From positions 1 to 64,000 of the forward strand of contig WQXU01000012.1 in the NCBI GenBank assembly GCA_009781635.1: a stretch of DNA of 64,000 nt, in the 5' to 3' direction. Source of the DNA: Treponema sp. Its GTDB lineage: Bacteria; Spirochaetota; Spirochaetia; Treponematales; Breznakiellaceae. Of this stretch, positions 24,110 to 28,811 are shown in pieces. Made by a program: the position numbers and the translations under genes. Each line of letters opens with the position of its first letter. The first letter of the stretch is position 1. The notes beneath the pieces are model-generated. The model made no database searches. It saw only the letters and a program-made list of their open reading frames with translations, and was not told the origin of the DNA.

Positions 24110-25323
24110 AAAGTATCGGGAAATCATCAAAGCTGGACAATGTTTGCTATGACATAAGAGGGCCTGTTTTAAAGGAAGCAAAGAAGCTTGAAGAAGAAGG
24201 TTATAAGGTCATAAAGCTTAATATAGGCAGTCCTGCCGCATTTGGATTAAACGCGCCCGATGAAATTGTCCGCGATATAATTATCAATTTGCCTAACGCT
24301 CAGGCCTACGGAGACTCCCGCGGACTTTTTGCCGCAAGAAAGGCTGTCATGCAGGACTTCCAGTCCAAGGGAGTTATGGACGTCGGGATCGATGATATTT
24401 TTATCGGCAATGGAGTGAGCGAACTAATATCGATGTCAATGCAGGCCTTGCTGGACAGCGCAGATGAGGTACTTATCCCAATGCCGGGTTACCCGCTTTG
24501 GACAGCAGCCGTAACTCTTGCAGGCGGCAAGGCGGTTCACTATGTTTGCGATGAGGCTCAGGACTGGAACCCGGATCTGAATGACATCAAGGCAAAAATA
24601 ACTAAAAGGACAAAGGCGATTGTTGTAATTAATCCCAATAATCCGACAGGCGCCGTTTATGAACGTTCCGTACTTGAAGGAATTGCCCAAATTGCAAGAG
24701 AGAATGAACTTATAATTTATGCTGATGAAATATACAGCCGTATCACATACGATGGAGCATTGTATATACCAATGGCTTCAATCGCTCCGGATCTTCTTAC
24801 AATCAGTTTTGACGGGCTTTCCAAAACATGGCGCGCTGCCGGTTTCCGTTCAGGCTGGATGGTTCTTTCGGGCAGCAAGAAAACAGCGGCAGATTATATT
24901 GATGGGCTTGATATGCTTGCCAATATGCGTCTGTGCCCTAACATGCCTTCCCAGATGGGCATTCAAACTGCTCTTGGCGGTTATCAGAGTATCAGGGATT
25001 TAATTGTTCCGGGCGGCCGGCTTCTGGAACAGAGAAATACAGCAGTCGATTATATCAATAATATCCCGGGCCTTTCTCTTGTTACGCCCAAAGGCGCGCT
25101 TTACTGTTTCCCGAAAGTTGATGTAAAACGTTTTAATATTGCAGATGACGAAAAACTTATGCTGGATATTTTGCGCGAGCAGCGCCTGCTGCTGGTTCAG
25201 GGTACAGGCTTCCACTTGAAGCAGCCTGATCATTTCCGCATTGTCTTCCTGCCTGATAAGGACACTCTTTCAGAGGCTATGCGAAGGCTGGGAACTTTTT
25301 TTGAAAATTACAGGCAGAGTTAA
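24097..25323 (+). CDS. alaA: AlaA/AlaC-type PLP aminotransferase
   Basis: A 408-residue fold-type I aminotransferase. IGSPAAFGLNAPDEI and YGDSRGLFAARKAV near the N-terminus match the alanine aminotransferase subgroup (AlaA-like). NPNNPTGAVYERSVL near 190, YADEIYSRITYD near 210 and DGLSKTWRAAGFRSGWM with K243 as the PLP Schiff-base lysine are clear. In the family these enzymes interconvert alanine and glutamate with pyruvate and 2-oxoglutarate. With alanine dehydrogenase elsewhere in the window it could connect pyruvate, ammonia and amino-acid pools. The start at ATG 24097 overlaps the previous gene; a TTG at 24106 with AGGGGA upstream is an alternative. Confidence 0.9.
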   Translation: MAVLKSIGKSSKLDNVCYDIRGPVLKEAKKLEEEGYKVIKLNIGSPAAFGLNAPDEIVRDIIINLPNAQAYGDSRGLFAARKAVMQDFQSKGVMDVGIDDIFIGNGVSELISMSMQALLDSADEVLIPMPGYPLWTAAVTLAGGKAVHYVCDEAQDWNPDLNDIKAKITKRTKAIVVINPNNPTGAVYERSVLEGIAQIARENELIIYADEIYSRITYDGALYIPMASIAPDLLTISFDGLSKTWRAAGFRSGWMVLSGSKKTAADYIDGLDMLANMRLCPNMPSQMGIQTALGGYQSIRDLIVPGGRLLEQRNTAVDYINNIPGLSLVTPKGALYCFPKVDVKRFNIADDEKLMLDILREQRLLLVQGTGFHLKQPDHFRIVFLPDKDTLSEAMRRLGTFFENYRQS

Positions 25324-25329
25324 TAGGCA

Positions 25330-27354
25330 TCAGGGAGCGAAAAGGTCATCGTATCTTCCGCCCATATTCCAGTGGGTAAAGCCGCCTAATCCCGCCTCGC
25401 GGACACCTTCAATCTGGCGCCGGACATAATTGTGATTATAATATTGCCTGTCATAAGATACGTTTAAACGGAAAGCCTGAGTCCAGGGACGTACAATCAC
25501 CTGACCGCGTGCTATGCGATCATTGCGTAATGTTCCTATGTAATAAATACGCCAGGGGCGCAGCTCCGGCGGATGCTGTGCAAGAAAATATTGTTCAAAG
25601 TGACTTGGGTAGTACATTGGACAGATCACATCTACAAGTGGAGCTAAAAGCTCAACTTCCTGGCCTGTGCGCGCGCCTGTACGGTACCAGCCATTAGCGC
25701 CGTATATATCAATTGAGATTGGCGCTTTTACCCTGGAGCGGACATGCAGTAAAAAAGAGTGTATGGCGCTTTCCATATCCATGCCGCTGTCACGCCAGCG
25801 GTAACGGGCATCGGCAAGATTGTCACCATCGGTAGGGAAGCGTATGTAGTCATATTGAATTTCGTCGATGCCCCGTTCGTGGAGTTCCACGGAAATATTG
25901 GCAATGTAATCCCATACTTCTTCTGAGTAAGGGTCTACCCAGCGCTCCTGACCAAATCCTACCCAGGGTATTCCATTCCTGTCCCACACAGCGTATTTAA
26001 AATTTTCCCTTGCATATAATTCCCTGTCTTTAAAAACCACAACCCGGGCAACTACATAAACACCCAGCTTTTTCATTTCTTCCATGAATGGTTCGATATC
26101 AAGAGGACTGAAAACTCTTCCTTTGGCAGTTATTGCGGGATTTCTAGGGTTGAACCTGAGCCTTCCTTCTTCATCCTTCATATCGATGACGACCATGTTC
26201 AAGCTGGCTCTTCTGATTACATCCAGGTAAGGCTGAAGGCTGCGGCTGTTAGCTGCATGATGAACAGGTAAAAAGATTCCTTCCTTGTTAGCTGCTATAT
26301 TGCCGGAGTGATCCTGCGGCTCATCAAGCAGCCAAAGCTCGCTTAGTTGAATTCTTGGCATGGAATTTATCACTATGCAGTTTGGTTTATTATTCGCAGG
26401 TATAGCGCGGATAATCTCTGTAATTTCCGGATGAAGACGTGTATTATTGCTGGAAAAATCCAGATGCGCTACTGTCCCTTCGCGTAAAAAATACAGTCCG
26501 TTTTCTTCAGGGTAGAGTGAATCTACTGTTCCAAAAGGAGTGTTATCCATCCATAAGAGATCAAACTTTTTTTGCTCCCAGTCCATTTTATAAATACGGT
26601 GCCTGAATGTTTGTGAAACATAAATCTCCGGGGCTCCTGCCTCGTTTAGAATAATGGCAATATCAGAGACTTCATCGGGGTTATTGGTGGTCTCAAGTTT
26701 TTCAAGGCCGTCCGCCATATATGTCCATTTTGAACCTGGAATATCCGGATGGATATAATGTATACCGTAAATACTATGTGAGAAAAACACTGTCAATTCC
26801 GGCATAAAGGCCGACGCAACAGCTTTAATTCCATTTGAACGGTATGGAATTGCGCCAAGATCAACCCATGAAAGCCCTTGATTGCGGCTTAAATAAACCC
26901 TGTCTTTGGTATTGCAGACGAATATATTCGGGTTAGCCGGATTTATTTTGATATCTTTTATTTCCTGAACGGTATGCAAAAAGGATTTTTGCCCCTCTTC
27001 ATATAATTTTATTACTTTTTCGGGTATTCCCTGGGTGCGTTTTTCCCAGCTTTGGCTCTCATTTATATTATTTGATAAAAATATCCCCTCACTGGTTAAA
27101 ATTACCCATTTATCTTCCTCGTTAGGGACGGAAAGTATTTTTTTAACCGATCCGCCTGTCCATGAAACCGCTGATTTCCCTTTAGAATCAATGATAAAAA
27201 GCCCTTCTTTTGTGCCGGCGTACATTAAAAGGCTTTTTTCCTCCGCCGGTTCTTCGCTTCTTTCGACATTAGTCATCGTACACATGGAAAATGAAAGCAT
27301 TACAAGGCAAACACAGAAAAACACGTAATTTAACTTAAATTTGGAAAATGTCAT
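25330..27354 (-). CDS. Lipoprotein with propeller-like N-terminus and DUF4015 glycosidase-like domain
   Basis: A 674-residue exported protein with signal peptide and a possible lipobox (LSFSMC, C25). Residues about 35-330 contain repeated LLxxxGxxxGLF and WVDLGAIP-like strands, suggesting a sialidase/YCF48-type propeller (DRVYLSRNQGLSWVDLG). Residues about 355-660 match DUF4015, a TIM-barrel glycoside-hydrolase-like domain: NKEGIFLPVHHAANS, IDMKDEEGRLRF, VVARVVVFKDRELY, WVDPYSEEVWDYI, EIQYDYIRFPTDG and the tail GGFTHWNMGGRYD. D and E residues at the ends of these strands could be catalytic. The combination suggests a cell-envelope enzyme acting on a polysaccharide; the substrate is unknown. 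AGGA lies about 7 bases before the ATG. Confidence 0.82.
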   Translation of the reverse strand: MTFSKFKLNYVFFCVCLVMLSFSMCTMTNVERSEEPAEEKSLLMYAGTKEGLFIIDSKGKSAVSWTGGSVKKILSVPNEEDKWVILTSEGIFLSNNINESQSWEKRTQGIPEKVIKLYEEGQKSFLHTVQEIKDIKINPANPNIFVCNTKDRVYLSRNQGLSWVDLGAIPYRSNGIKAVASAFMPELTVFFSHSIYGIHYIHPDIPGSKWTYMADGLEKLETTNNPDEVSDIAIILNEAGAPEIYVSQTFRHRIYKMDWEQKKFDLLWMDNTPFGTVDSLYPEENGLYFLREGTVAHLDFSSNNTRLHPEITEIIRAIPANNKPNCIVINSMPRIQLSELWLLDEPQDHSGNIAANKEGIFLPVHHAANSRSLQPYLDVIRRASLNMVVIDMKDEEGRLRFNPRNPAITAKGRVFSPLDIEPFMEEMKKLGVYVVARVVVFKDRELYARENFKYAVWDRNGIPWVGFGQERWVDPYSEEVWDYIANISVELHERGIDEIQYDYIRFPTDGDNLADARYRWRDSGMDMESAIHSFLLHVRSRVKAPISIDIYGANGWYRTGARTGQEVELLAPLVDVICPMYYPSHFEQYFLAQHPPELRPWRIYYIGTLRNDRIARGQVIVRPWTQAFRLNVSYDRQYYNHNYVRRQIEGVREAGLGGFTHWNMGGRYDDLFAP

Positions 27355-27428
27355 AATATTATCCTAGCAAAGAAACATAAATATTGAAATACATAAATTA
27401 TTAAATAATATTATTTATCCGTTAAAGT

Positions 27429-27574
27429 CCCGTATTAAAATGACCGATAATGTAATACCGGGAGGGAACTTGCAACGAGCCCACAGGGTGAGTTTCCAGC
27501 TCTTGCCTCTCATTATACAGACGGTGTGCATAGGGTTAATAGCCCTGACGTCCAGGCACATCGTCTTTTTTTTT
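27429..27574 (+). ncRNA. Candidate structured small RNA ending in a terminator
   Basis: Three hairpins lie in a row. The first pairs 27429-27437 with 27453-27462 (one bulge). The second pairs GGGAACT (27464-27470) with AGTTTCC (27491-27497) around an inner CCC/GGG. The third pairs GACGGTGTGC (27520-27529) with GCACATCGTC (27556-27565), a 10-bp stem with an inner AGGG/CCCT hairpin, followed by nine T residues. No plus-strand gene lies upstream for over 2 kb, so the terminator does not end a coding gene. SRP, tmRNA, RNase P, 6S and common riboswitch signatures are not visible. Upstream promoter support is weak (TTGAAA at 27384 and TAATAT at 27406). Confidence 0.5.
27520..27574 (+). terminator. 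Intrinsic terminator of the candidate small RNA
   Basis: The 10-bp stem GACGGTGTGC/GCACATCGTC (one G-U pair) encloses a smaller AGGG/CCCT hairpin and is followed directly by nine T residues (27566-27574). Confidence 0.75.
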
Positions 27575-27613
27575 GTAAATGTATGCCTGAAAAGTTTAGC
27601 CGCAAACCAATTG

Positions 27614-27642
27614 TTGACAAAAATTAAATACCGGCGTATCCT
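27614..27642 (+). promoter_or_regulatory. Promoter of the UgpC/MsmK-like ATPase gene
   Basis: TTGACA (27614-27619), 17 bases, TATCCT (27637-27642). The transcript would start near 27649 and carry a 55-base leader with a small hairpin before GGGAGG and ATG 27705. Confidence 0.65.
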
Positions 27643-27704
27643 GAACTCATAAAATAACCCTCTGACCGTTTGAAATGGTCAGAAAAGTAATGGGAGGCCA
27701 GCGT

Positions 27705-28811
27705 ATGGCAAAAGTTGAAATGAAGAGCATTTCAAAGGTGTATGATGGCGGAGTCCGCGCTGTGGACAATGCCAACATCGTAGTCGAGGACAAGGAATTT
27801 GTCGTTTTGGTAGGACCCTCTGGTTGCGGAAAATCCACAACTCTCAGAATGGTCGCAGGTCTTGAGGATATCACTGAAGGTGAACTCCTTATTGACGGTG
27901 AAAAAATGAACGATGTTCCGCCGAAGGACAGGAATATCGCCATGGTATTCCAGAACTACGCCCTCTATCCTCATATGTCAGTTTATGAAAACATGGCATT
28001 CGGTCTTAGAATCAAGAAAGTACCCAAAGCGGAAATTGACAAACGTGTTAATGAGGCTGCCCGTATTCTTGATATCGAAAAGTTCCTTGATCGCAAACCC
28101 AAGGCCCTTTCCGGCGGTCAGAGACAGCGTGTTGCGGTAGGCCGCGCCATTGTCCGTAACCCGAAGGTCTTCCTTTTTGACGAGCCCCTCTCCAACCTGG
28201 ACGCTAAATTGCGCGTACAGATGAGGGCGGAACTTTCAGATCTTCACCTTCGTTTGAACGCAACAATGATTTATGTTACACACGACCAGGTCGAAGCTAT
28301 GACCATGGCGAATAAAATCGTTGTTATGAAAGACGGCAAGGTTCAGCAGATTGGAGCTCCTTTGTACCTTTATAACTGGCCGGTCAACAAATTTGTTGCA
28401 GGCTTTATTGGTTCGCCGCCAATGAACTTCCTTAACGTAAGAGTAAGGGAAGACGGCAATTCCATTATGCTGGATGAAGGTTCATTCAAACTCAAGGCGG
28501 ATTCTTCGCATAATGAGTTCCTTAAAAGTTATATCGGCAAGGAAGTATTCTTTGGTATACGCCCTGAAGATTTGATGTATTCAGAAAAAGATGCTGCCAA
28601 CAGCATGACTGTAAAGGTAACTGTAGTTGAGCCCCTCGGCGCAGATATCCATCTGTGGCTGACAACGGAAAAACAGCCTCTTGTTGCACGCACCGAACCT
28701 AATCACACATTTAAAGTCGGCGATACTGCCATCTTTATTCCCAGAATGGAAAAAGCGCGCTATTTCGACAAAGATACTGAACTTGCGATTATTCCTTCTC
28801 CGGATCTATAG
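27705..28811 (+). CDS. ugpC: Carbohydrate ABC transporter ATPase (UgpC/MsmK type)
   Basis: A 368-residue ATPase of the CUT1 sugar-importer class. Walker A GPSGCGKST at 37-45, signature LSGGQRQRVAVGRA near 134, Walker B LFDEPLSNLDAKLR near 155 and H-loop YVTHDQVEAM near 190. The C-terminal 130 residues form the TOBE regulatory domain (FFGIRPEDLMY). I use ATG 27705 (MAKVEMKSI), which has GGGAGG 7 bases upstream and fits the family start. No permease or binding protein is adjacent, so it probably serves several sugar transporters in trans, as MsmK does in streptococci. A strong terminator follows directly, so it is monocistronic. Confidence 0.93.
   Translation: MAKVEMKSISKVYDGGVRAVDNANIVVEDKEFVVLVGPSGCGKSTTLRMVAGLEDITEGELLIDGEKMNDVPPKDRNIAMVFQNYALYPHMSVYENMAFGLRIKKVPKAEIDKRVNEAARILDIEKFLDRKPKALSGGQRQRVAVGRAIVRNPKVFLFDEPLSNLDAKLRVQMRAELSDLHLRLNATMIYVTHDQVEAMTMANKIVVMKDGKVQQIGAPLYLYNWPVNKFVAGFIGSPPMNFLNVRVREDGNSIMLDEGSFKLKADSSHNEFLKSYIGKEVFFGIRPEDLMYSEKDAANSMTVKVTVVEPLGADIHLWLTTEKQPLVARTEPNHTFKVGDTAIFIPRMEKARYFDKDTELAIIPSPDL

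Follow-up and report, generated by a model that had tools for sequence, protein, structure and literature searches.

Results and discussion

Setting of the locus

In the window, by which the whole analysed stretch of 64,000 nucleotides is meant, a conserved, unannotated small-RNA gene is predicted on the plus strand at ~27422-27574, its corrected borders running from promoter to terminator. The RNA itself, delimited by these two elements and with its start placed ~6 nt past the -10 element, would occupy 27457..27573 of the plus strand and measure ~117 nt. The gene upstream of it, with a DUF4015 domain, lies on the minus strand (25330-27354; open reading frames and Pfam), and the last plus-strand gene before it, which encodes an aminotransferase, stops at 25323; with such neighbours, the initial annotation was right that the strong plus-strand terminator follows no coding gene. 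No tRNA or tmRNA was found in the window, and a 70-aa open reading frame at 27440-27652 had no Pfam match. A small peptide shared among relatives seems improbable: the frames starting inside the RNA vary greatly in length from one relative to another, and do not suggest one. Genomes, loci, families and genera are labelled below with G, L, f and g, G000 being the genome of the window.

Downstream, ugpC, encoding a UgpC-type ATPase, starts at 27675, ~100 bp past the RNA terminator, and a separate sigma-70-like promoter, recognised by its sequence motif, lies between the two and outside the RNA (27614..27642, plus strand). A strong terminator at this distance from ugpC is what speaks for an element acting in cis on the downstream gene, as its leader or attenuator. 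To this explanation we give hardly any credence: downstream genes vary among loci, the loci read show no conserved gene downstream on the same strand, the next long frame is opposite in many of them, and ugpC has its own promoter-like site. The conservation, stem covariation and dedicated promoter motif described below bear out the earlier proposal of an independent RNA rather than a ugpC leader. Sugar transport, at which the same proposal had hinted, fared less well: a UgpC-like neighbour is mostly a trait of the genus (13 of the 28 loci that carry the label of the window's genus vs 4 of 129 elsewhere), and the sigma-28-type promoter and a Maf-like gene point to flagella.

A sigma-28-type promoter

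The promoter consists of a -35 element TTAAAG of sigma-28 (FliA) type (27422..27427, plus strand; consensus match and matrix test) and, after a spacer of 15, a -10 element ACCGATAAT (27443..27451, plus strand), the same motif being found in this genome before flaB and before a FliS-like gene. In every one of the 29 genus loci, that of the window among them, TAAAG or TCAAG is followed after 12-18 nt by CCGATA, upstream of the 5' hairpin; this motif is the sigma-28 (FliA) promoter consensus. The consensus stands directly before the RNA, which is the mark of the class of sigma-28-dependent sRNAs. In Treponema denticola, the flaB2 promoter mapped by RACE has the -10 sequence CCGATAA, according to the part of the report drawn on here (PMC9481697).

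A matrix derived from 25 promoters of the genus was used to score 114 sequences outside the training set, further genus members among them (2 of 116 were skipped as too short), and 91 of the 114 scored above the 99th percentile of dinucleotide shuffles, 103 above the 95th. The low matrix score of the window copy is attributed solely to the slice having cut off its -35 box. As a strict motif, the promoter had six matches in this genome vs two for the reversed control; these include flaB, the RNA and the FliS-like gene, so named from its translation, while three of the six have no recognised flagellar gene behind them. The strict motif was no commoner than its control in G060 (11 vs 11) and G061 (10 vs 15), the RNA's own promoter being among the matches in both. 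A FliA model scored over its cut-off in 279 of the 291 genomes of the order.

The promoter also bears on the outline first given to this RNA, namely ~146 nt with three hairpins and a terminator. The terminator stands; the 5' border and the number of hairpins do not, two being conserved. The hairpin GTATT...AATAC, read as the first of the three, overlaps the sigma-28-type promoter at 27422-27451, upstream of the expected start, and is promoter DNA, so that of the two hairpins placed before the terminator only the middle structure is retained, as a single hairpin carrying an insert.

The 5' hairpin and its insert

The inferred transcript thus has two conserved hairpins, a 5' hairpin and the terminator hairpin. 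As deduced from promoter and T run, it measures ~117 nt in this genome, compared with roughly 60-85 nt in relatives, the difference being due to a dispersed, genus-specific palindromic repeat inside the loop of the first hairpin. The fold is more stable than that of shuffles: z was -2.23 for the 146 nt of 27429-27574, which 5 of 200 shuffles equalled, -3.06 for 27456-27573, the transcript with corrected borders (1 of 200), and -5.21 for a relative lacking the insert (0 of 200).

In the window, the 5' hairpin (27460..27511, plus strand), drawn from the pairing seen in relatives, has the arms GGGAGG (27460-27465) and CCTCTC (27506-27511) around a loop enlarged by the insert. Across 28 relatives 91.6% of the cells in these arms are paired, and the genus loci have GGGAGG-loop-CCTCTC, or near variants, between promoter and terminator. 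Elsewhere a hairpin of other sequence takes its place (mean z -2.35 in 115 of 142 sequences), and for 68 of these 115 no more than 2 of 50 shuffles had an equally good fold. The RNA of other families is shorter; its 5' hairpin is not the one seen in the genus, its terminator stem reads, for example, AACGGTATGC/GCATACCGTT, and its loop, for example, nnnGACGTCCAG.

The inserted repeat (27467..27503, plus strand, borders approximate) has the core CAACGAGCCC...GTTTCC at 27473-27497 and is missing from aligned relatives: a stretch of ~35 bp, ~27468-27502, is absent from them, while the flanking parts of the RNA are separately kept. The hairpin with the insert still folds, as judged against shuffles. 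The pattern CAACGAGCCC-N6-14-GTTTCC is matched six times in this genome; of 39 genomes searched, the 7 that contain it all belong to the same genus, and its reversed control had no match in the same search. Further copies in G000 lie at C3:117077, C14:39659 and 39695, C14:66460 and C39:13398. The copies in L296 and L297 seem to sit inside open reading frames, and in this resemble Rickettsia palindromic elements.

The terminator stem and its loop

The intrinsic terminator hairpin (27519..27566, plus strand), identified by covariation, has arms at 27519-27529 and 27556-27566 and a small upper hairpin, and is followed by a T run at 27566..27574 of the same strand. Its unpaired GACGUCCAG (27547..27555, plus strand) is, by loop conservation, the most conserved element of the RNA and its presumed site of action.

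For comparison, 142 distinct sequences having ACGTCC, a stem of at least 9 pairs and a T run were kept, taken in part from the matches listed of the collection scan described below. Alignment A3 comprises 81 of 86 non-redundant sequences, five with long loops having been left out and L232 dropped for its weak stem. In these 81 diverse sequences 97.3% of the terminator-stem cells are paired and 9 of the 11 pairs have changed on both sides, levels that shuffled and slid controls came nowhere near. The rows of A3 had been selected for possessing a stem, and for that reason the stem test was repeated on loci chosen without regard to the 5' arm among the collection-scan matches listed, with the loop, the 3' arm and the T run as sole criteria. 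Among these matches, at least 9 of the 11 pairs form in 111 of 115 distinct places and all 11 in 84, the four failures being L175, L190, L232 and L251; when the 45 bases upstream were shuffled, at least 9 pairs formed in 215 of 2300 cases (9.3%) and 11 in none of 2300. The terminator stem is real, being paired and covarying and then followed by a T run, and gives the RNA a defined end at the predicted site of termination.

The loop of this hairpin has the consensus RACGUCCAG. The invariance of ACGTCC within the 142 sequences is there by construction, since the set was collected with ACGTCC. In 69 sequences outside the collection scan, ACGTCC is followed by AG in 68 and preceded by G in 59 and by A in 10. 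Variants were recovered as well: among L051-L102, five of the loci in which no ACGTCC was found have GATGTCCAG (L055 and L056), GACTTCCAG (L083), GACATCCAG (L084) and GGCATCCAG (L085); the models found ATGTCCAG (L333), CATCCAG (L349) and GGTCTAG (L348); and reading behind the Maf-like genes of family f3 gave ACATCCAG (L385). None of these nine loci sits in the 142-sequence collection. The loop is therefore strongly, though not absolutely, conserved, UCCAG being its steadiest stretch.

Distribution among spirochaetes

The initial annotation had made its case depend on close relatives keeping the stems, and they do: in a search of 59 genomes, the terminator region, and with it the locus, was present in 28 of 35 same-genus genomes, stems kept. 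The remaining seven, 67-87% complete, had no match or weak matches only. A covariance model of homologues, likewise proposed at the outset, was built from the 28 genus sequences with the promoter excluded; at E <= 0.05 it matched 123 of the order's 291 genomes, two rejected f3 matches counted in. When the phylum was searched with a model of the terminator domain, 72 of 392 genomes had matches at E <= 0.01, weak matches included; 30 matches were below 1e-8, of which 11 were in eight families of the same class outside the order, and all eight of these that were read have the loop ACGTCCAG. Scanning a collection of 84,980 species genomes for the pattern yielded at least 118 stretches; among the matches listed, each of the 80 titles refers to Treponema, Spirochaet- or Brevinematales organisms. 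No copy was found in viral contigs. The RNA would be old enough to occur in families outside its order, the family of G045 and G093 having no convincing match.

As to copy number, G001 has a genuine second copy and G036 two copies. A second G000 match, at C6, is a terminator after a tRNA-like gene and was rejected, as were, on inspection, the weak second matches of G424 and G050.

Family f3 possesses FliA and PF01973 and lacks a convincing match to the RNA model, so that motility there does not require the RNA. Of its weak matches, those in G174, G141, G231 and G243 (L337, L338, L081, L101) were rejected on inspection. Seven regions behind f3 PF01973 genes were followed by hand; L382 did not reach the 3' end of the gene and L383 stopped 63 bases past it, and among the other five viewed no copy was recognised in four, the fifth being the divergent copy in L385. 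This copy (G235, genus g78) follows a Maf-like gene and has a sigma-28-like promoter, and hints that f3 may once have had the RNA and mostly lost it since.

A Maf/MptE-like neighbour

Nine neighbouring proteins picked as Maf-like all match PF01973 (MptE-like), eight of their genes being upstream on the same strand and one convergent. A profile of the eight upstream proteins was then run on 157 loci, 7 of which proved too short for a verdict. Of the 124 evaluable loci outside the genus, 82 have a Maf/MptE-like gene upstream on the same strand, 5 have one elsewhere and 37 have none, some genus members from the collection scan being counted as outside because the genus label covers L002-L030 and L045 only. 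In those 82 loci the median distance from the end of the Maf-like frame to ACGTCC is 91 bp (2-905). Among evaluable genus-labelled loci such a gene adjoins the RNA in 3 of 26. Maf-family proteins modify flagellin in other bacteria, and one of three Maf-like proteins tested had a weak match, far below the cut-off, to the flagellin modification protein PseD. In L064 (G061), the RNA gene has beside it a tyrosine recombinase akin to XerA and to integron integrases, with scores under the cut-off.

The order includes 18 genomes without PF01973, all of family f4 (genera g8, g10, g14, g61, g71, g73 and g76); they have a FliA-model match, and an RNA match was seen in none of the 18, as against 10 of the 11 f4 genomes over the PF01973 cut-off, the lists having been compared by eye and with a genus-tuned model that may miss copies. 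This co-occurrence probably reflects few evolutionary events.

Proximity and co-occurrence are both what one would expect if the hairpin were merely the terminator, in the 3' UTR, of a Maf/MptE-like mRNA and the RNA had no function of its own. We regard this as rather improbable, in that a bare terminator needs neither the conserved promoter just ahead of it nor a conserved unpaired loop, and in that promoter, hairpins and loop are all kept in the genus loci, most of which have no adjoining Maf-like gene.

A putative regulator of the flagellar regulon

A late-flagellar promoter motif, a conserved loop left unpaired above a covarying stem, and the persistence of the RNA where its Maf-like neighbour is missing argue for an independent, trans-acting RNA. 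On sequence evidence, our favoured reading, which we hold to be reasonably probable, is that of a sigma-28-dependent sRNA of the flagellar regulon that acts in trans through its loop. RNA polymerase with sigma-28 (FliA) would start transcription of the gene once the late flagellar genes are on; the product would be a two-hairpin RNA, shorter in relatives than here, ending at its own intrinsic terminator; and the exposed terminator loop, mostly RACGUCCAG, would most likely base-pair with a target RNA. In many lineages the RNA may double as the 3' end of the mRNA from the Maf/MptE-like gene upstream. The RNA would probably help tune motility. Against this reading count family f3, with FliA and PF01973 and no convincing match, the negative target searches given next, the three strict promoter matches with no recognised flagellar gene together with the motif counts in G060 and G061, and the loop variants. 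Hfq has been reported in Leptospiraceae and not in Borrelia, as far as the part of the source used here goes (PMC11607428), and the RNA may work with it or without it.

The searches for a target gave the following. Against 22 flagellin leaders, pairing of the loop segment was no better than that of shuffles (median rank 67 of 100). A search of seven genomes for the exact complement CTGGACGT within 22 nt before an ATG brought out no target among the hits followed; in G000 there were 2 such matches vs 16 for a control pattern, one being the RNA's own antisense and the other opening no long frame, and both were set aside. Two complement sites recurring in both f5 genomes (G039 and G080) were not taken as start sites, since they overlap coding-like long frames on the opposite strand.

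The loop might instead be a protein-binding site, the RNA being a decoy, rather than a base-pairing seed. The strong conservation of an unpaired stretch and the lack of a paired target in these searches fit this, but the natural candidate protein, CsrA, requires GGA in a loop; on inspection the terminator loop has no GGA and the 5' hairpin keeps none, and we know of no protein that recognises the RACGUCCAG motif. A decoy thus seems unlikely, though less so than a bare terminator, and the repeated GGA loops of a CsrB-type, CsrA-sequestering sRNA, a class considered and rejected, are missing too.

All 22 flagellin leaders read (loci L107-L121, from G000, G026, G060, G061, G073, G039, G041 and G080) show, on inspection, a stem-loop with GGA in its loop before the start codon, near the ribosome site. 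Judging from the leaders themselves, it is likely a CsrA site, and for T. denticola the part of PMC9481697 cited here reports CsrA sites close to flaB1 and flaB2. The loop sequence ACGUCC (ACAUCC in L084 and L385) is complementary to GGAYGU, the core of CsrA-binding sites, and UCC, the complement of GGA, is kept in every loop form except L348. One could imagine that the RNA antagonises CsrA, its loop covering the CsrA sites in flagellin leaders by loop-loop pairing and so freeing late flagellin translation, whereas CsrB titrates the protein. The negative linear duplex test, a pairing of a mere 5 to 6 base pairs, and the variants AUGUCC and ACUUCC, which fit GGAYGU less well, all count against this idea, to which we attach very little probability. 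A base-pairing sRNA of the flagellar regulon remains the reading preferred here.

Comparison with known RNAs

At gathering scores, Rfam had no match for the window or for 15 loci; at E <= 10, sraL (minus strand, E 0.23, below the gathering score) and sR32 (E 5.3) appeared in 27340-27720 and were dismissed as chance. Termite-flg RNA (RF01729) is linked to flagellar genes; it gave no match in 27340-27720 at E <= 10. The portion of the source consulted places it in the termite hind gut only (PMC2864571). No description of the spirochaete RNA was found in the literature covered, which largely excluded subscription papers. It may therefore be regarded as a putative new RNA family of a kind already known, the sigma-28-dependent sRNAs. 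In the literature found, these belong to E. coli and Campylobacter, and the present RNA would extend them to spirochaetes, with their periplasmic flagella. Being defined by covariance models, and being a predicted regulator with one conserved loop, the family makes a role in motility testable in cultured species.

Within the parts of the sources drawn on, the sigma-28-dependent sRNAs UhpU, MotR, FliX and FlgO of Escherichia coli (PMC10578931) are likewise small, driven by the flagellar sigma factor and derived from UTRs, as the spirochaete RNA often lies behind the 3' end of a gene; unlike it, they have tested mRNA pairing and belong to a different phylum, and the RNA is set beside them by description only. 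Similarly, on partial acquaintance with the reports, Campylobacter has the FliA-dependent sRNA CJnc170 (FlmR) (PMC11187230) and the paralogs CjNC1/CjNC4 (PMC4626219), which are also short and under the flagellar sigma factor; they too come from a different phylum, so that the likeness is one of description only and homology is not to be expected.
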